Shown: in pieces, positions 4,882-27,191 of the stretch
Layout of the letters: every line of letters begins with the position of its first letter
Position numbering within the stretch: position 1 is the stretch's first letter
NCBI RefSeq assembly: GCF_041821025.1
Contig: NZ_JBGUAY010000006.1
Span: 186,001-250,000 of the forward strand
Reading direction: 5' to 3'
Length of the DNA: 64,000 nt
Source of the DNA: Egicoccus sp. AB-alg6-2
Lineage (GTDB): Bacteria > Actinomycetota > Nitriliruptoria > Nitriliruptorales > Nitriliruptoraceae
Translations under genes and position numbers: made by a program
Notes under the pieces: generated by a model
What the model was told of the DNA's origin: nothing
Seen by the model: the letters and a program-made list of their open reading frames with translations, nothing else
The model's database searches: none

Positions 4882-5276
4882 GGCGGCGGCAACGCCTTTG
4901 AGCCGGCGCGGCGCAAGCCCCCGGCGAGCCCGGGCGCACGCCCGTCCGGGGCGTTCGTCCCCGGCCATCGGCACCTTGCGTGCCGTCGGATGGACGGCGT
5001 CCATGCGTCGGCCGCGCGAATCGGTCGTGCGACCAAGGCCATCGTGCCGTGCTCTCCCTGTACGGACGATCGCCCGTGCCGCGGCCGCTGTACGTCCGAC
5101 GCCACGGCCGGGGTTGAGGTCGCAATCAAACCCACGTTGGGTTGGCCCCGTTGCGCTCGAGAGAGCGCGACACGCGATCACGAGATGATCACGGGGACGC
5201 ACAGACCTCTGGACCCAGCAACGGTCGCCCAGAGCCAGTAGCCGGAACCTGCGACGGGTTCCCGCTGCCGACTCGG

Positions 5277-5367
5277 GTCCAGAGCGAGCGAGTGGCGAGA
5301 CCGACCCCGGAACCGACCAGAGCGTCGGCTCCCCGGAGTCGACGCCCACGCTCGAGAGGTTCTGGAC
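5277..5367 (+). promoter_or_regulatory. Structured leader RNA (copy A) ending at the start codon
   Basis: GTCCAGA (5277-5283) pairs with TCTGGAC (5361-5367), the seven bases immediately before the ATG. Inside are a second stem (CGAGTG 5289-5294 with CAC/CTCG 5347-5354), a hairpin CCGAC/GTCGG (5313-5328) and a small hairpin CTCC/GGAG (5329-5338). The likely ribosome site AGAGG (5355-5359) lies between the two 3' arms. The first 41 bases match copy B at 8625 with one substitution and one indel, and the stems covary. This suggests translational control; I do not recognise the class. Confidence 0.7.
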
Positions 5368-7620
5368 ATGACGCAAACATTCCGCTGGAGGCACTCCGCC
5401 TCCCTGTTCGCGCTGATGGCGCTGGTGCTGGCGATGTTCGCCCCCGCCGCCGCCTTCGCGACGGACAGCGAAACCACCGACGCAGAGAACGAGGCCACGG
5501 AGTCGGCTGCTGAAGCTGAACAGGGGACAGCCGAGTCCGAGTCCTCGAACGACATGGCTTCCTCGACCACCGTCGAGGAAGATGGCACGACCGCCGAGAC
5601 CGAGGCCGACGCCACCACCGCAGCCGAAGCCACGATCACCGTGACCTTCGACTCGGGCGCGACCCGGACGGCCACCGCCACGCCGCAGGGGCAGAGTGCG
5701 ACCTACCTGTTCCAGGTCAGCGTCACGGATGCCGACACGGTCACCGCCGCCTCGGTTTCGCTCGACGGTGAGACCTACACCTGGACCGGCAACGGCTCCG
5801 ACCACGCCGAGTGTGCAACCGATGCGGGCGGCACCTGGCAGATCAACCTGACGTCGTCCAAGGTCGTCACCATCAGCCACGCCGACTGCGCCGGCGACGC
5901 CATCGTCGATGGCGATGAGAACGGCGATGACGGCAAGGAAGACGACGGTAAGGAAGACGACAACGGCGACAACGGCGACGACGGCGACAACGGCGACGAT
6001 GGCGAGACCGGCGGCGACCAGGTCGACGCCGACTACGGCGCCAACGACAACGTCGACATCTGCCACGCCACCTCGTCCGCGACCAACCCGTACAACGCGA
6101 TCTCGCCCAGTGTGAACAGCATCGTCAATGGCGAGGGTCACGGCGGGCACACCGGTCCCATCTTCGACGCCGCCACCATGACGAGCGGTGACACCTGGGG
6201 CGACATCATCCCCTCGTTCACCTACCTCGATGGCGATGAGGTCAAGACCTTCGATGGCGTGAACTGGCCCGCGGGCGCGGACATTCTCGCTGCCGACTGC
6301 GAGTTCGGCACAGAGGGCGATGACGGCGATGACGGTGACAACGGCGACAACGGCGACGGGGACACCGACGTCGACGCCGAACTGACCGTCACCACCTCGA
6401 TCGAGGGCGACGACATCTGCCTCGGCGACGAGGTCACCGTCACCATCGCCAACACCGGCGACATCGACCTCCACGTCACCGGCACGCTCACCCTCCCCAA
6501 CGGCACCGAGATGCCGCTGGTCTACGAGATCGTCGCTGGCGACTCGGCCGTCATCACCGACACCCCCAACCAGCTCGGTGACCACGTCATCGTCTGGCAC
6601 GTCACCGACCACGACGACCTCGACGGGGCCCTCACCATCACGGTGATCGACTGCGAGGACGAGGCACCCGTCGTCGACGACAGCATCGAGTTCACCGGCA
6701 CCACGACGGCGCTGGTTTGCATCGGCACCGACGTCAACCTCACGCTCGACGCCCTGATCGGTGTGGACGCGGACGCCACCTTCGCCGACCTCGAGCTCGC
6801 CTTCCTGGGCGACGCCGAGCTGCTGGCTGGCTACGGGTTCGACCTCGACGACCTCGGCTTCGACGAGGACGGCAACTTCAGCGCAACGCTGTCGAACCTG
6901 CCGCTCGGCGCGAACGTGTTCGACTACACGGTGAGCCTCGACGGCGAGGTCCTCCACACCGGTGCGATCACCATCACGGTCGTCACCTGCCCGCCGCCCG
7001 TCACCGAGCCGCCCGTGACCGAGCCCCCGACCCCGACGATCGCCGCGGACGTCGAGCTGGTCTGCCCCGACGGTGAGGCTGGTTTCGTGGTCACCACGAC
7101 CGGGACCGACCTCGACGCCACCGCCGGCAGCCTCGTGGTCGCCTACACCGGCGTGAACGACGCCTTCTGGTCCACCCCGCTGACCGTGGGTGACAACCTC
7201 ACGGTGGCGTGGCCGGTCGGCGCTGACGGCATGTTCCTCACCGAGTTCGCCGTCTGGGTCACCGTCGGCACGACCGCGAGCAACCTCGTCCTGGTCGACA
7301 CCGTCGGCTTCGAGTGTGACTTCGTCCTCGACGAGGGCGTCGACGCTCCGGGCACCGACGGCGGTACCGACACGGACGTCGACACCGACACGGACGTCGA
7401 CACCGACATTGGCGGCGATGACGTCACCCGCGACGACGACACCGACGTCGAGACCGTCGTGGTGACCACGCCCGACACGACCGTCACCGTCGACAGCGAC
7501 CGCGTCCTCGGCGTCTCCGGGGACCAGCTGGCCCGCACCGGCTTCTCCATGCTGGGGCTGCTGGCTGCTGGACTGCTCTCGCTGCTCACCGGTGCCGGTC
7601 TGTTGCGACGTCGCAGCTGA
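5368..7620 (+). CDS. Wall-anchored surface protein with CHAT-type Cys/His domain, LAXTG sorting signal
   Basis: This is a 750-residue secreted protein. A signal peptide (about 1-31, ending AAAFA) is followed by an Ala/Glu/Thr-rich stretch and a beta domain (about 88-175, similar to that of the first gene in the window). Next come an Asp/Gly repeat linker (180-220) and the Cys/His domain: CHAT 232-235, GHGGH 257-261, DIIPSF 279-284, GVNW 297-300, Cys 311. Several immunoglobulin/CARDB-like beta segments and a PPVTEPPVTEPPTPT spacer follow. After DTDVDTDTDVDTD repeats comes LARTG (721-725), a hydrophobic helix and RRRS. LARTG fits class E sortases. The start is fixed by the signal peptide and AGAGG eight bases upstream, inside the structured leader. 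Ligand or role is unknown. Confidence 0.88.
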   Translation: MTQTFRWRHSASLFALMALVLAMFAPAAAFATDSETTDAENEATESAAEAEQGTAESESSNDMASSTTVEEDGTTAETEADATTAAEATITVTFDSGATRTATATPQGQSATYLFQVSVTDADTVTAASVSLDGETYTWTGNGSDHAECATDAGGTWQINLTSSKVVTISHADCAGDAIVDGDENGDDGKEDDGKEDDNGDNGDDGDNGDDGETGGDQVDADYGANDNVDICHATSSATNPYNAISPSVNSIVNGEGHGGHTGPIFDAATMTSGDTWGDIIPSFTYLDGDEVKTFDGVNWPAGADILAADCEFGTEGDDGDDGDNGDNGDGDTDVDAELTVTTSIEGDDICLGDEVTVTIANTGDIDLHVTGTLTLPNGTEMPLVYEIVAGDSAVITDTPNQLGDHVIVWHVTDHDDLDGALTITVIDCEDEAPVVDDSIEFTGTTTALVCIGTDVNLTLDALIGVDADATFADLELAFLGDAELLAGYGFDLDDLGFDEDGNFSATLSNLPLGANVFDYTVSLDGEVLHTGAITITVVTCPPPVTEPPVTEPPTPTIAADVELVCPDGEAGFVVTTTGTDLDATAGSLVVAYTGVNDAFWSTPLTVGDNLTVAWPVGADGMFLTEFAVWVTVGTTASNLVLVDTVGFECDFVLDEGVDAPGTDGGTDTDVDTDTDVDTDIGGDDVTRDDDTDVETVVVTTPDTTVTVDSDRVLGVSGDQLARTGFSMLGLLAAGLLSLLTGAGLLRRRS

Positions 7621-7640
7621 CGCACTGAGGTAGCGCGCAG

Positions 7641-7666
7641 GTGGGGCGGCCTTCGGGCCGCCCCAC
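7641..7666 (+). terminator. Hairpin terminator after the LARTG protein
   Basis: An 11-bp perfect GC stem (7641-7651 with 7656-7666) is closed by a stable TTCG tetraloop, 20 bases past the stop codon. Confidence 0.85.
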
Positions 7667-7760
7667 TCGTGCGTGCGCTGTCGAGCAATCGAGAGTTCAC
7701 CGACGACAACCCGTGCCGGAGACGACATACTGCGCGTCGCTATCTACGGCATGGACATTC

Positions 7761-8354
7761 ATGACCTCCCCGCTCGAGACCTACGGGCACCTGGCCGCCG
7801 CGCCCGTCGTGGCCGACCGCGACACCGACGTCGCGCACTCCGTCACCGCGACCCTCGAGGCGGAGCCGGCCGAGGTCGGGGAACGGCTGCGCCGGGCGCG
7901 GCTCGCACGAGGTCTCTCACTGGCCGATGTCGAGCAGCGCAGTGCGGGCCGGCTCAACGCCGTTCTGGTGGCTTCGTACGAACAGGGGGGTAGAGCCGTC
8001 ACACTCCCCCGCCTCGGCGACCTGGCCGAGTTCTACGACCTGCCGGTCCACGAACTGCTGCCGTCCCAACCTCGGGGCGACCACGGGACGCCCGACGGTC
8101 CGGCAGCCGACCCGGCAGCCGTGACGCTGGACCTGGAGCGACTACCCGAGGATGCCGTCGACGGACTAGACCCGATAGCGCTTCGGGCCGTGGCGCGCTT
8201 CGCCGAGCACATCAACGAACGCCGTGGCAACCGGAGCGAGCGCGTCCTCACCGTGCGCGGTGACGACTTGCGAACGATCGCTGTAGCGGTCGGTCACGAA
8301 CCCGACGACCTCATCGATGCGCTGCGTCAGCTGGGCACGATCGTGTCCGATTGA
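7761..8354 (+). CDS. BldD-like transcriptional regulator (paralogue 1)
   Basis: This 197-residue protein has the BldD layout. An XRE-type helix-turn-helix covers about 39-101 (GLSLADVEQ ... ASYEQGGRAVTLPRL ... FYDLPVHELLP, close to Streptomyces BldD). A linker and a C-terminal domain (about 136-195) follow. In BldD that domain binds tetrameric c-di-GMP through RxD-x8-RxxD. Here the signature reads R155-G-N157, eight residues, R166-G-D-D169, so the first Asp is Asn and binding may be weakened. The ATG at 7761 adds about 36 residues before the usual BldD start and has no clear ribosome site, so a later start is possible. It lies between two surface-protein genes, suggesting local control. It is not the canonical bldD locus. 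Confidence 0.88.
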   Translation: MTSPLETYGHLAAAPVVADRDTDVAHSVTATLEAEPAEVGERLRRARLARGLSLADVEQRSAGRLNAVLVASYEQGGRAVTLPRLGDLAEFYDLPVHELLPSQPRGDHGTPDGPAADPAAVTLDLERLPEDAVDGLDPIALRAVARFAEHINERRGNRSERVLTVRGDDLRTIAVAVGHEPDDLIDALRQLGTIVSD

Positions 8355-8720
8355 CGGCCGAAACGACACTGCGTTAGCAACATCTAGCGCTGCGTTACGT
8401 CCAATGAGCCGCCCACGCGCAGTAGGCGCATGCGAGTGCCAGGCAAACCGGACATTTCGGCGAGTTTTCTCACGCCCTGCGCAGAACTCGCCCCTTTGTG
8501 TGAGGGAGTCGGCACGATTTTCCTGCTGCGGATCCCTCCACAGCAAACCGCGGTCAACAGTTTCGTGACCGCCGGGGCGCATTGACCTCTGGATTTTCAC
8601 GGTCGCCCGGGCACTCGTGCCCGAGTCCAGAGCGAGCTAGTGGCGAGACCGACCCGGAACCGACGTTTGCGTCGGTCCCCTCCCGCGGGGTCGGCGCACT
8701 AGTTCAAAGGGTTCTGGACC
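8355..8720. other. Intergenic region before the third surface protein
   Basis: Its 3' third is the structured leader copy B (8625-8719). Just before it is a 7-bp hairpin, CGGGCAC/GTGCCCG (8608-8623). I see no gene and no convincing promoter in the rest. Confidence 0.65.
8625..8719 (+). promoter_or_regulatory. Structured leader RNA (copy B) ending at the start codon
   Basis: GTCCAGA (8625-8631) pairs with TCTGGAC (8713-8719), one base before the ATG at 8721. CTAGTG (8637-8642) pairs with CACTAG (8697-8702). ACCGACG/CGTCGGT (8659-8676) forms a TTTG-loop hairpin and CCCC/GGGG (8677-8690) another. AAAGG (8706-8710) is the likely ribosome site, between the 3' arms as in copy A. The T-A versus G-C swap in the second stem between copies A and B is compensatory, which supports a real RNA structure. 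Confidence 0.7.
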
Positions 8721-10469
8721 ATGAGGGCACGATCTCGGCGAGCCTTGAGCCTCGCCACTCTTCTCGTCTTGATGCTGAGCGCAATGCTGCCGATGTCATC
8801 GCTGGCCGCGATGGCCGACGAAGAGCAGCCGGAGGCGAGCGAGGGCGACGCCGTCGTGGACGGGACTGAGGAGGACCTTGCCGCCGGACTGTCCGCCGCC
8901 TCGTTCGCGAACGACGACAAGGGCAAGGAGAAGGACGACAAGGACGTCGACACCAGCGACAGCATCACTGTCCTGGCCACGGAGAAGCACTGCACCGACC
9001 ATGACTCCACTTCCTACTGGAAGTCCGGATCGAGCCAGACGATCAACGGGGTGACGATCACCGTTTCCGGCAAGACGGTGACCGCCACCGGCGGTTCGGC
9101 GGAACTGTGCGTGAAGGGCGGGACCGACAACAGTGGTCGTCTCGCGCTGGCTGACGGCGCCTCCTACACCGTCACCTTCGAGAACGGGGGTGGCCAGAAC
9201 CCGAACATCAGCTACGTCGTCGTCTACAAGGTGACGCCGACCGTCACCCCGGACGGCGAAGACGAGGACGGCCCCCAGAAGGTGACGATCTGCCACGCAA
9301 CGGCAGCGGGCACCTACACCAGCAACTCGCTCCCGAAGTGGCAGATCTACGCGGCGGGCGGTCACAGCCACGGCAACGAGACCTCGGTCCACCCCGACGA
9401 CATCATCCCACCGTTTGCTGCAGGGAGTCACGGCGGACAGTCCTGGGGGGCGTTCGACGGATTCAACTGGACGCCTGCCGGCCAGCTCATTCACGGCAAC
9501 GGATGCGTCGACGACAGCACGGTCGTGACGCCGCCGTCGATCGTGCCGACCGCATCGTTCACTTCGGAGTGCGTCACCGAAGGCACCAACGCGAACACGC
9601 GCAAGGTCACGGCCACCCTCGACAACAACGTCTCGACCGACGGCAGCGTCGACAACGCCACCGTCGACTACCAGATCGTGCGCACCGACAGCGGCAGCGA
9701 CAGCGTGCTCGACACCGTGACCGTGCTCGCCGGCGCAACCGGCAGCTGGACCGGCTACGTACCCGACACTCAGACCTGGACGCTCAAGGTCGTCACCGGC
9801 TCCGGCGACGCCGCCACGTCCATCGCCAACGGCTCGTTCACTGGCAACTGCACGACCGGCGGCGACGAGAATCCGGTTCCGCCCGTTCCTCCGAGTCCGC
9901 CCGTACCTCCGGTACCGCCGGTGAAGACGCTCTCGGTCACGGGCAGCGAGGTCTGCCAGGACCTGGTCCCGAGCTTCGTGCTCACCATCTCCGGTGACAA
10001 CCTGACCGCCGATAGCGGGTCGGTCGAGCTGCGCAAGGTCGGCGGCACGGGCCTCGTCACCCACGACGTCGATCGGGGGCGGAACACCCTGCCCTGGCCG
10101 TCCGGTGGCGGGCTGAGCTGGGAAGCGGTCGCGGTCACGGTGAGCTTCGACGGCCTCACGGACTCCCTGACCCTCGACTACTCCGAGATCGAGGTGGAGT
10201 GCACCGAGGTCCTGCCCGAGGAGCCGGTGGACCAGGAGCCGACGCCGGTTGACCCGGTTGACCCGGACGACCCGGACGGGTCGGAGAACCCCCCGACGCC
10301 GGCGAAGCCCGTGGTGACCGACGACAAGGACGACGACGAGGTGCTGGGCGTCGTGCGCGACCGCAAGCTGCCGCGCACGGGCGCCTCGACGCTCGAACTG
10401 CTCGTCGGCGGACTCGCAGCGCTGGGCCTCGGCGGTCTGCTGCTGCGGCGACGGGAGCAGGACGCCTGA
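8721..10469 (+). CDS. Wall-anchored surface protein with CHAT-type Cys/His domain, LPXTG sorting signal
   Basis: This 582-residue secreted protein has a signal peptide of about 32 residues and a Lys/Asp-rich stretch. A first beta domain has Cys residues in EKHCTDHD and AELCVKGG. The Cys/His domain begins with CHAT (191-194), continues with GGHSHG, DIIPPF and DGFNW, and closes at Cys262. Further beta domains and a PPVPPSPPVPPVPP spacer precede an acidic Pro/Asp linker. LPRTG (550-554), a hydrophobic helix and RRREQDA end the protein, a canonical LPXTG signal. The start is set by the signal peptide and AAAGG ten bases upstream. It shares the leader of the gene at 5368 but a different sortase signal type. 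A terminator follows directly. Confidence 0.88.
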   Translation: MRARSRRALSLATLLVLMLSAMLPMSSLAAMADEEQPEASEGDAVVDGTEEDLAAGLSAASFANDDKGKEKDDKDVDTSDSITVLATEKHCTDHDSTSYWKSGSSQTINGVTITVSGKTVTATGGSAELCVKGGTDNSGRLALADGASYTVTFENGGGQNPNISYVVVYKVTPTVTPDGEDEDGPQKVTICHATAAGTYTSNSLPKWQIYAAGGHSHGNETSVHPDDIIPPFAAGSHGGQSWGAFDGFNWTPAGQLIHGNGCVDDSTVVTPPSIVPTASFTSECVTEGTNANTRKVTATLDNNVSTDGSVDNATVDYQIVRTDSGSDSVLDTVTVLAGATGSWTGYVPDTQTWTLKVVTGSGDAATSIANGSFTGNCTTGGDENPVPPVPPSPPVPPVPPVKTLSVTGSEVCQDLVPSFVLTISGDNLTADSGSVELRKVGGTGLVTHDVDRGRNTLPWPSGGGLSWEAVAVTVSFDGLTDSLTLDYSEIEVECTEVLPEEPVDQEPTPVDPVDPDDPDGSENPPTPAKPVVTDDKDDDEVLGVVRDRKLPRTGASTLELLVGGLAALGLGGLLLRRREQDA

Positions 10470-10577: not shown

Positions 10578-11516
10578 GTGAGAAACGACCGCCCAAGGCC
10601 GTCGGTGACCACCCGGCTGCTCGTCCTGTCCGCCATGGCCCTGGCCATGACCACGCTGGCCGCCCCGGCACTCGCCCTGGACGGCGCGGATCAGTCTCCC
10701 TCCGCCACGGAGACGAGCGAAGACACGCATCGCACGACGGTTCTGCTCGATTCCGAAGACGTCGACGCCGTCGAGGAACCCTCGGCGGAGGCGCCTTCGG
10801 CGGACGGAACACCGGCGAGCGCAACGCCAGGCAGCGCAGCACCAGGAAGCGCGAAGTCGGCGGACACGACGCCGAGGAACGCGACGTCGCCGGAGACCTC
10901 GACCGATTCGGCGTGCGCCACGCTCGCCATCGTGCGGCCCGACGGCATCACCGGTGACGCACAGGCGGTCACGATCACGGCGCAGACCCTGGACGCGGAA
11001 CTCGCCGGCTGGAGCTTCGTCCAGTGGACGCTGGACCCGCTGGTTCGGGCCGACATGCTGGTGGTCGTCGGTCGTGACGGGTCTCGCACCGAGGTCCCCG
11101 CCACCGCGGGACATGCCGAAGCGGTCCTGGAACTGGTCGTGTGCGGGCATCGCGAGGGTCCGGCCGTTCCCGTCGACCCCGACGGCCCCGTCGAGGGCGA
11201 GGCACCGGTCGACGAGACCCCCGACCCGGACGGCGGCGAAGGTGACGGCAGCGGCGGCGAGGGCGACGACAGCGGCCCCACCCCGGACGGCACGCATGGC
11301 GGCAGTGCCGACGAGGACACCGCGGGAGGCAACGGGCACGGCGAGGAACTCCCGCGCACGGGCAGCTCCACCTCGACGGCATCCCTGACCATGCTCGGGC
11401 TCGCCAGCCTGCTCGTCGGCGCGCTGCTACTGCGTATTGGGGGGCCCGCGTGGCGTCCCCAGACGCCGGCCATCGAGAAGTCGGGCAGCACTTCCGCACG
11501 CGGAGATCGGCAATGA
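10578..11516 (+). CDS. Small LPXTG surface protein without the CHAT-type domain
   Basis: This 312-residue secreted protein uses a GTG start with GGAG five bases upstream. It has a signal peptide (about 1-33, ending ALALA), an Ala/Ser/Thr/Glu-rich low-complexity region, one compact beta domain (about 113-195, with two Cys, in DSACATL and VVCGHR), and an Asp/Gly/Glu linker. LPRTG (258-262) is followed by a hydrophobic helix. Unlike its neighbours, the tail after the helix is long (about 25 residues) and carries only one Arg at the membrane edge. That extra tail runs into the next gene: its TGA overlaps the ATG of the BldD-like gene (ATGA, 11513-11516). The pair is probably translationally coupled. 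Confidence 0.83.
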   Translation: MRNDRPRPSVTTRLLVLSAMALAMTTLAAPALALDGADQSPSATETSEDTHRTTVLLDSEDVDAVEEPSAEAPSADGTPASATPGSAAPGSAKSADTTPRNATSPETSTDSACATLAIVRPDGITGDAQAVTITAQTLDAELAGWSFVQWTLDPLVRADMLVVVGRDGSRTEVPATAGHAEAVLELVVCGHREGPAVPVDPDGPVEGEAPVDETPDPDGGEGDGSGGEGDDSGPTPDGTHGGSADEDTAGGNGHGEELPRTGSSTSTASLTMLGLASLLVGALLLRIGGPAWRPQTPAIEKSGSTSARGDRQ

Positions 11517-12259
11517 GCGAGCCTTCTCCCCTCGCCGGCGCCATCGGCAGCCGGCTCCGCCAGGTGCGTCGCCAGCAGGAGCTGTCCCTGGCCGACGTCG
11601 AGGAGCGCAGCCTGGGCGCCTGTAAGGCGGTCGCGCTGAGCGCCTACGAACGCGGGGTCCGCGGCGTCACGGTTGCTCGCCTTGCGCAGCTCGCCAGCCT
11701 CTACGAGGTGCCGGTGAGCACGCTGCTCGCACCCTCCCCGAAGGTCGCCCGGCCGATCGCTCAAGCTGCCGCGGCAGGAATGATCCCCGCTTCCGGCGCC
11801 CGCTCCGCGACCGCCGCGACCACCGCCGCGACCACCGAGGGGCCGGCCCCGGCAACCGCGGGGCCGACCGCGGCAACCGCGATGCAGAACCCGGCCGCAG
11901 CGGCGACGACTTCGAGGCCACGCCCGTCACGGTCGAGGCGCAGGACGCCGCTTGCGGCCAACGACGCGACCGCCGACGCGAACGGCCGGGGACGGACGCT
12001 GCGGTTGCAGGCACTCCTCGACATCGCCGCCGGCGACGGTTCCGACGCCGAGCTGCTTCGTGCCGTCGTCCGCTTCGTCGAGCACATCACCCAACGTCGC
12101 GGCGACCACAACGGCCGGGTCCTGACGCTCCGCGACGGCGACCTGACCACGATCGCGGTGGCGGTCGGTTGCCGGCTGCCCGAACTGCTCGAGGTGCTCG
12201 ATGCCCACGGGGTGACGTCCGCGGGCGTCCCGTCAGCCGGGGCGACCGCGCCGGCCTGA
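11513..12259 (+). CDS. BldD-like transcriptional regulator (paralogue 2)
   Basis: This 248-residue protein has the BldD layout. The XRE helix-turn-helix covers about 9-73 (LSLADVEERS, SAYERGVRGVTVARL, LYEVPVSTLL). The linker is unusually long and Ala/Thr/Pro-rich (about 80-160), with a basic patch RPRPSRSRRR. The C-terminal c-di-GMP-type domain covers about 163-235. The signature is complete: R196-G-D198, eight residues, R207-D-G-D210, matching RxD-x8-RxxD of BldD. GGAG lies seven bases before the ATG. It overlaps the upstream surface-protein gene by 4 bp, so the two are likely co-expressed. Targets are unknown; the neighbouring surface genes are the obvious candidates. Confidence 0.88.
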   Translation: MSEPSPLAGAIGSRLRQVRRQQELSLADVEERSLGACKAVALSAYERGVRGVTVARLAQLASLYEVPVSTLLAPSPKVARPIAQAAAAGMIPASGARSATAATTAATTEGPAPATAGPTAATAMQNPAAAATTSRPRPSRSRRRTPLAANDATADANGRGRTLRLQALLDIAAGDGSDAELLRAVVRFVEHITQRRGDHNGRVLTLRDGDLTTIAVAVGCRLPELLEVLDAHGVTSAGVPSAGATAPA

Positions 12260-25754: not shown

Positions 25755-27191
25755 GTGGCCGACCGCGCCTGGCTCGCAATCGTGTGCGTCGGTGCCACGC
25801 TGGCACTGACCCACTGGATGCTGCCTGCCGAACGGGTGGACACGGCCTACCTGGCCGTCGCCATCGGGGCCGCGGTGGTCCTGTGGCTCGCGGTGGCGAG
25901 CCGGCGGTTGGCGCGCCGGGTGTCGTGGGCGTTCCTCGCGGCGGGCGTCACCTCCGGGCTGGTCGGCGACCTGATCTGGGTCTTCTACAGCGCCAGGGGG
26001 ATCGAGCCGTTCCCCTCGCTGGCCGACGTCTTCTACCTCGGTGCCTACCCGCTGTACGCGACCGCGCTGTGGGGCCTCGGGCGCCGCGAACGGCTGGCGG
26101 ACCGCGCCGTGCTCGTCGATGCCGGCATCCTCGGCGTCGCCGGACTGGTGTTGAGCTGGGCCTACCTGCTGGCACCGCACGTGCACGACAGCGAGCTCAC
26201 GTCCTTCGAGCGCGCCGTGAGCGTCGCCTACCCCGTCGGCGACCTCCTGCTGCTGCCCGTGATCGCACGCCTGGTGTTCGTCCATGCGGCGCGGGTCCGT
26301 CCGCACCTGCTGGTCCTGTTCGCGATGCTGGTCATGCTCGTGGCCGATTCGGCCTTCGGCATCGGGGTGTTGAACGAGACCTACGTCGACGGCGGGCCGC
26401 TGGACGCGCTCTGGCTCGTCTCGTACGTGCTGATGGCCGCAGCCGCCTGGCACCCCGCGGCCGTCGACGAACCGCCGGCCCTGGACGTGACCGGCGAGGT
26501 CTCCCGCCGCCGCCTGCTCGCGCTGGCCGTCGCGACCCTGTTGGCGCCGGCGGTGCTGCTCTTGCACGACCCACCGAACAACTCGATCGGCTGGGTGGCG
26601 GGCGCGGCCTCGATGCTGCTGTTCGTGCTGGTGGTCGGTCGCATGGCGATGCTCGTCGACCAGGTCAACCTGCAGGCACGACAGTTGGAATCGCTGACCC
26701 GCACCGACCCGCTGACGGGCGCGGCCAATCGGCGGGCCCTCGACGAGAACCTCGACGCGGCCATCGCCCGGCTGGAGCGTGATGCACGACCGTTCGCGTT
26801 CGCCCTGCTCGACCTCGACCGCTTCAAGCTCTACAACGACACCAACGGCCACCTCGCGGGTGACGCGCTGCTGCGGGACGCGGTCGCCCGCTGGGCCACC
26901 GAACTCCGCGAGGTCGACCTGCTCGCCCGCTACGGCGGCGAGGAGTTCGCGGTCCTGCTTCCCGATGCCGACGCCGGCGCCGCGCGGGCGGCCGTCGAGC
27001 GGCTCCGTGCGGCCATGCCCGTCGGCGTGACCTGCTCGGCCGGCATCACCATCGCCGAGCCCGGCGCGACCCAGGACGACCTCGTCCGCGCCGCCGACCA
27101 CGCGCTGTACGTCGCCAAAGCGTCGGGGCGCGATCAGGCCGTACTCGCCACCGAGGCGTCGGGACATCCCGACGGCGCACCCGTCGCCTGA
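25755..27191 (+). CDS. Membrane-bound diguanylate cyclase (GGDEF domain)
   Basis: This 478-residue protein makes c-di-GMP from two GTP. Eight to ten predicted membrane helices fill about 5-300. A GGDEF domain (about 312-465) carries TDPLTGAANRRAL, DLDRFKLYND, and the active site GGEEF (394-398). The RxxD inhibitory site (R385-E-V-D388) sits exactly five residues before it, so product feedback is expected. No EAL domain. The start is GTG at 25755 with CGAGGA upstream. It is the only c-di-GMP enzyme in the window and could feed the BldD-like regulators 14 kb away; that link is inference. Confidence 0.92.
   Translation: MADRAWLAIVCVGATLALTHWMLPAERVDTAYLAVAIGAAVVLWLAVASRRLARRVSWAFLAAGVTSGLVGDLIWVFYSARGIEPFPSLADVFYLGAYPLYATALWGLGRRERLADRAVLVDAGILGVAGLVLSWAYLLAPHVHDSELTSFERAVSVAYPVGDLLLLPVIARLVFVHAARVRPHLLVLFAMLVMLVADSAFGIGVLNETYVDGGPLDALWLVSYVLMAAAAWHPAAVDEPPALDVTGEVSRRRLLALAVATLLAPAVLLLHDPPNNSIGWVAGAASMLLFVLVVGRMAMLVDQVNLQARQLESLTRTDPLTGAANRRALDENLDAAIARLERDARPFAFALLDLDRFKLYNDTNGHLAGDALLRDAVARWATELREVDLLARYGGEEFAVLLPDADAGAARAAVERLRAAMPVGVTCSAGITIAEPGATQDDLVRAADHALYVAKASGRDQAVLATEASGHPDGAPVA

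Follow-up and report, generated by a model that had tools for sequence, protein, structure and literature searches.

The locus and its genes

The 64,000-nucleotide stretch analysed here (the window) belongs to a member of the Nitriliruptoraceae (Actinomycetota). Two of its genes, those for surface proteins A and B, are each preceded by a structured leader (Table 1). Protein B matches the LPXTG_anchor model TIGR01167 with 24 bits (cut-off 15.9) and falls just under the cut-off of 20 for PF00746 (19.8 bits); the tail of protein A had no match among curated families. The genome encodes four sortases. Four surface-type genes were identified in this one stretch (1-1255, 5368-7620, 8721-10469 and 10578-11516), and the first three have in common an ICHAT...GHGGH...DIIPPF-like segment with no Pfam match. 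For the gene that ends at 1255, the start (GTG at L116 1218, or another close by) lies outside the window on its upstream side, and no riboswitch match was found.

Between the genes for proteins A and B lies a gene for a BldD-like regulator, the real start of which may be ATG 7763, and a second BldD-like regulator is encoded at 11450-12259. BldD of Streptomyces is a c-di-GMP-binding regulator, with RXD-X8-RXXD as its c-di-GMP signature (PMC4151990). Both neighbouring regulators share its BldD-like_C domain, and the second has the complete signature. The regulator between the riboswitch genes, in contrast, reads RGN-X8-RGDD, with RGN for RXD, the Asp being replaced by Asn. The order of riboswitch-surface gene, BldD-like gene and riboswitch-surface gene is also found in two other species of the genus (three in total), and the signature is complete in the syntenic G001 and G003 proteins.

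Table 1. Coordinates of the leaders, their structural elements and the adjacent genes in the window
Feature	Position	Strand	Basis
c-di-GMP-II-GAG aptamer, copy 1	5186..5315	+	cmscan RF03169, alignment
Copy 1 stem P1	~5192-5196/5305-5309	+	RF03169 alignment
Copy 1 stem P2a	5198-5200/5288-5290	+	RF03169 alignment
Copy 1 stem P2	5207-5214/5277-5284	+	RF03169 alignment
Copy 1 P2 5' arm, CUCUGGAC = CTCTGGAC, competes with pre-AUG arm	5207..5214	+	alignment, sequence
Copy 1 pseudoknot	5222-5229/5294-5303	+	RF03169 alignment
Leader 1, aptamer 3' half and expression platform, anti-aptamer hairpin	5277..5367	+	-48.0 kcal/mol, z -4.47
Ribosome-site-like CGAGAG(G), mostly in bulge of anti-aptamer hairpin	5353..5358	+	sequence, fold
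Pre-AUG arm GUUCUGGAC, pairs with P2 3' arm, abuts ATG 5368	5359..5367	+	sequence, fold
Surface protein A, 750 aa, signal-peptide-like N terminus, LARTG, hydrophobic stretch and RRR tail	5368..7620	+	ORF
BldD-like regulator (HTH and BldD-like_C)	7641..8354	+	PF21179, E 9.3e-12
c-di-GMP-II-GAG aptamer, copy 2	8566..8663	+	cmscan RF03169
Copy 2 stem P2	8587-8594/8625-8632	+	cmscan RF03169
Copy 2 P2 5' arm CTCTGGAT	8587-8594	+	alignment, sequence
Copy 2 pseudoknot	8600-8607/8642-8651	+	cmscan RF03169
Leader 2, aptamer 3' half and expression platform, anti-aptamer hairpin	8625..8719	+	-53.3 kcal/mol, z -4.62
Pre-AUG arm GUUCUGGAC, one base before ATG 8721	8711..8719	+	sequence
Surface protein B, 582 aa, signal-peptide-like N terminus, LPRTG anchor	8721..10469	+	ORF, TIGR01167

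Riboswitch aptamers in both leaders

A covariance search against Rfam with cmscan identified RF03169, the c-di-GMP-II-GAG aptamer, at both copies (65.2 bits, E 2.5e-11 for copy 1; 58 bits, E 1.7e-9 for copy 2), far above the gathering threshold of 40. The preliminary description of this DNA had seen no match to a c-di-GMP motif, which is incorrect. The agreement in sequence and structure extends over all 86 model positions (1-86) in each copy, including the conserved core GAGCNAGUGGCGAGACCG and its pseudoknot partner CGGUCGCC; only the third P2a pair of copy 2 (C8578/U8638) is broken in the aptamer fold. Both aptamers lie directly 5' of, and on the same (+) strand as, the ORFs starting at 5368 and 8721. 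Matches to microRNA and snoRNA families in the region were far under their cut-offs and mostly on GC-rich coding repeats, and were taken as chance.

The elements had earlier been delimited as 5277-5367 and 8625-8719. The repeat and the hairpin are real, but the aptamer begins about 90 nt (copy 1) or 60 nt (copy 2) further upstream, and these segments are the aptamer 3' half plus the expression platform. What had been recognized is the alternative fold that sequesters the ribosome site; what had been missed is the aptamer 5' half, with the P2 arm that vies for that strand. The 41-base block shared by the 5' ends is indeed present twice, the copies differing by a substitution (G5290 versus U8638) and a single-base indel. 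The GTCCAGA/TCTGGAC arms are located at 5277/5361 and 8625/8713, the 3' arm abutting the start codon, as had been claimed, in copy 1 (ATG 5368) but not in copy 2, where one C (8720) precedes ATG 8721. The base-pair change said to keep the second stem paired was also found, as G5290-C5349 versus U8638-A8701 in the minimum-energy register.

A third RF03169 copy of the same genome (L003; contig C6, 989-1074, minus strand) precedes a gene for a secreted protein, and has an AA bulge and a U before the pseudoknot. Leaders of this type carry CCUUCCC immediately 3' of P1, able to pair with the likely ribosome site GGGAAGG, and repeat the P1 3' arm CACACC right before the AUG, as is also seen in L048, L054, L060, L067 and L070. 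Locus L022 has two RF03169 aptamers, one with an AA and one with an AG bulge, separated by 107 nt ahead of a single secreted protein; this pair is possibly a tandem riboswitch.

An anti-aptamer hairpin before the start codon

The P2 3' arm (GUCCAGAG; GTCCAGAG) has two exclusive partners, i.e. the P2 5' arm in the aptamer (CUCUGGAC/U; CTCTGGAC at 5207-5214, CTCTGGAT at 8587-8594 in copy 2) or UUCUGGAC before the AUG in the ribosome-site hairpin, which is the normal layout of a riboswitch expression platform. The pre-AUG strand TTCTGGAC is a near second copy of the P2 5' arm. The alternative fold pairs the P2 3' arm and core (GAGCGAGUGGCG / GAGCUAGUGGCG) with the 20-30 nt preceding the AUG and leaves the purine-rich ribosome site in a bulge. 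None of 200 dinucleotide shuffles was as stable as the leader in either copy. A 7-base complement equally near the start was found for 42 of the 1126 ATGs in the window and is thus not rare alone, so that the long hairpin in two copies is the part exceeding chance. The earlier proposal of a translational riboswitch-type leader thus has good support. A terminator scan found no terminator-like hairpin with a U-run in either leader, the sole site being at 8448-8460, upstream of aptamer 2, and a sigma-70 promoter scan found no promoter. The Rfam model covers only the aptamer, the AUG-abutting anti-aptamer hairpin lying outside it, and no description of this platform was found among the papers searched.

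With the ligand left out and the pseudoknot treated as unpaired, opening the ribosome site (-16 to +3) is predicted to cost 10.9 kcal/mol in copy 1 and 18.7 kcal/mol in copy 2, but 5.6 and 4.4 kcal/mol, respectively, once the aptamer is imposed. Copy 1 was not freer in the aptamer state when 40 nt of coding sequence were kept and only local unpairedness was counted. Models without pseudoknot and ligand put the aptamer about 11 kcal/mol above the unconstrained fold in copy 1 and about 26 kcal/mol above it in copy 2. The pseudoknot helix, worth about -10 kcal/mol as a duplex, would cut this difference by about 10 kcal/mol; as the hairpin of copy 2 would still be favoured, co-transcriptional folding, in which the aptamer forms first, would have to settle the switching at least in this copy.

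Occurrence and complementarity in relatives

Of 101 related genomes, 44 have RF03169 matches, as do 25 of 35 from the family Nitriliruptoraceae. Nearly all downstream ORFs have signal-peptide-like starts, 60-90 nt past the core, a count somewhat biased by the use of hydrophobicity as one criterion for choosing starts. A scan of named genomes gave no match to the exact P2 3' arm plus core of the window; a looser core pattern found 25 loci, mostly in Nitriliruptoraceae MAGs.

Complementarity between aptamer and pre-start sequence was assessed in 45 GC-rich loci with an AG bulge, by comparing own with swapped pre-start sequences in 5000 permutations. The P2 3' arm and core pair better with the last 30 nt before their own start (mean -23.5 versus -21.6 kcal/mol when swapped; z -4.5, p<0.0002, 0 of 5000 permutations as good), and still do so in the 39 loci left when the window's genus is taken out (z -2.8, p 0.003), these p-values being approximate since the loci are related to one another and the permutations are uncorrected for kinship. 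For the P1/pseudoknot strand against positions -60 to -20, z was -4.2 with and -4.3 without the window's genus. L004 and L036 retain the pre-AUG GGUUCUGGA despite a different P2 sequence, and its perfect complement, within GGGUCCAGAACCC, sits in the P2 loop region and not in the P2 arm. The pre-AUG strand thus appears to keep touching the aptamer in another way, possibly as a loop-to-leader contact.

Covariation of the hairpin pairs is by itself weak support, since the five closest homologues show a single two-sided change in 32 pairs (5290/5349 versus 8638/8701; 98% of cells paired), which is not above column shuffles. The U of copy 2 breaks a P2a pair of the aptamer yet preserves the hairpin pair, a hint, from a single event, that the hairpin is under selection. 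R1, a covariance model built on this hairpin, found both copies in their own genome and reached other genera (L004, L034, L017, L036), although such matches are not independent evidence because R1 contains the aptamer 3' half.

The ligand

The most likely ligand is c-di-GMP, the label carried by the Rfam name. The genome encodes 24 GGDEF domains, the kind found in enzymes for c-di-GMP synthesis, and one DAC domain. Within the family, the RNA occurs in 25 of the 29 GGDEF-bearing genomes and in none of the six GGDEF-free ones (four from one genus, two from another), a split with a hypergeometric probability of about 1e-4 if the genomes were independent, which they are not. A GGDEF domain is also encoded at 26703-27137 (+), about 16 kb downstream of the riboswitch genes.

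The GAG of the family name presumably refers to the GAG trinucleotide at the bulge; GAA-bearing members such as L003 also score best with RF03169. Canonical c-di-GMP-II aptamers have an AA bulge with U, whereas those of the window have an AG bulge with C: C precedes the pseudoknot, and G takes the second bulge position, where class II members otherwise have U and A. These two positions change together: C is found with AG in 41 loci and U with AA, CA or TA in 17, with only two clear exceptions, of U with AG, among the aligned relatives.

Proposed mechanism and alternative explanations

We consider it highly probable that both leaders are c-di-GMP-II-type riboswitches (Rfam c-di-GMP-II-GAG) with a translational platform, through which c-di-GMP raises the two surface proteins. 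Without ligand, the P2 3' arm GUCCAGAG and the following core would pair with the 20-30 nt before the AUG, holding the ribosome site inside or beside the long hairpin. Binding of the ligand, most likely c-di-GMP, would stabilize the aptamer fold, in which the upstream CUCUGGAC(U) takes the P2 3' arm, so that UUCUGGAC before the AUG is freed and translation can start. Rising c-di-GMP would then turn on two surface proteins with LPXTG-like tails. The match to the aptamer family, the mutually exclusive pairing, the complementarity in relatives, the gene context and the association with GGDEF are observed; the identity of the ligand, the ON direction, and translational rather than transcriptional control are inferred.

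By analogy, the closest functional parallel to these genes is CD2831 of Clostridioides difficile, a substrate of sortase whose level c-di-GMP increases by way of a type II riboswitch (PMC4591827). There, a related aptamer of the canonical c-di-GMP-II family (RF01786), Cdi2_3, likewise precedes a sortase-anchored surface protein (PMC4591827), but the control reported is transcriptional, whereas the leaders of the window have no terminator and a predicted translational platform.

The linked change at the presumed ligand site raises the question whether the same architecture, in its GAG variant, senses another cyclic dinucleotide, e.g. 3',3'-cGAMP. In class II structures, one of the guanines of c-di-GMP is held by a U-A pair near the co-changing site. 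Weinberg et al. (2017, PNAS; cited in PMC9481103) reportedly proposed that c-di-GMP-II variants may recognize other signals. However, a swap of C-G for U-A can preserve geometry, the BldD-like neighbours point to c-di-GMP, and the surface-protein targets match those of c-di-GMP-II elements elsewhere. That the RNA tracks GGDEF genes fits any GGDEF product, although it disfavours c-di-AMP in spite of the DAC domain. We regard a different dinucleotide as unlikely, and equally so the wider proposal that the GAG aptamers of the Nitriliruptoraceae have moved their specificity to another GGDEF-made dinucleotide while an anti-aptamer platform engaging a whole aptamer half turns surface proteins on.

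It seems less probable still that the ligand turns expression off, the bound aptamer hiding the ribosome site and the long hairpin being a mere intermediate or stability element. In static folds with more coding sequence, the ribosome site of copy 1 is indeed not fully open once the aptamer has formed, but the same strand is contested by the aptamer and the ribosome-site hairpin, and in both copies the aptamer state makes opening of this site cheaper, not dearer. The stability and repetition of the hairpin could also be explained by an autoregulatory protein-binding site or a plain mRNA-stability hairpin, acting without a small-molecule ligand. A complete riboswitch aptamer with conserved core and pseudoknot in both copies, and its presence in those 25 family genomes ahead of otherwise different secreted proteins, make this very improbable.

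Significance

The leaders are a known kind of riboswitch in new hosts and not a new RNA class, with a clear platform that probably acts as a translational ON switch. In an actinobacterial order that has received little study, they tie an RNA sensor of the c-di-GMP-II type to surface proteins with LPXTG-like tails, in genes that adjoin BldD-like regulators, whose founding member binds c-di-GMP. Short, natural and with a plain switch geometry, the two leaders lend themselves to tests of the ligand preference of the GAG variant. Although the class is known, this ligand question and the two-sensor locus are testable points.
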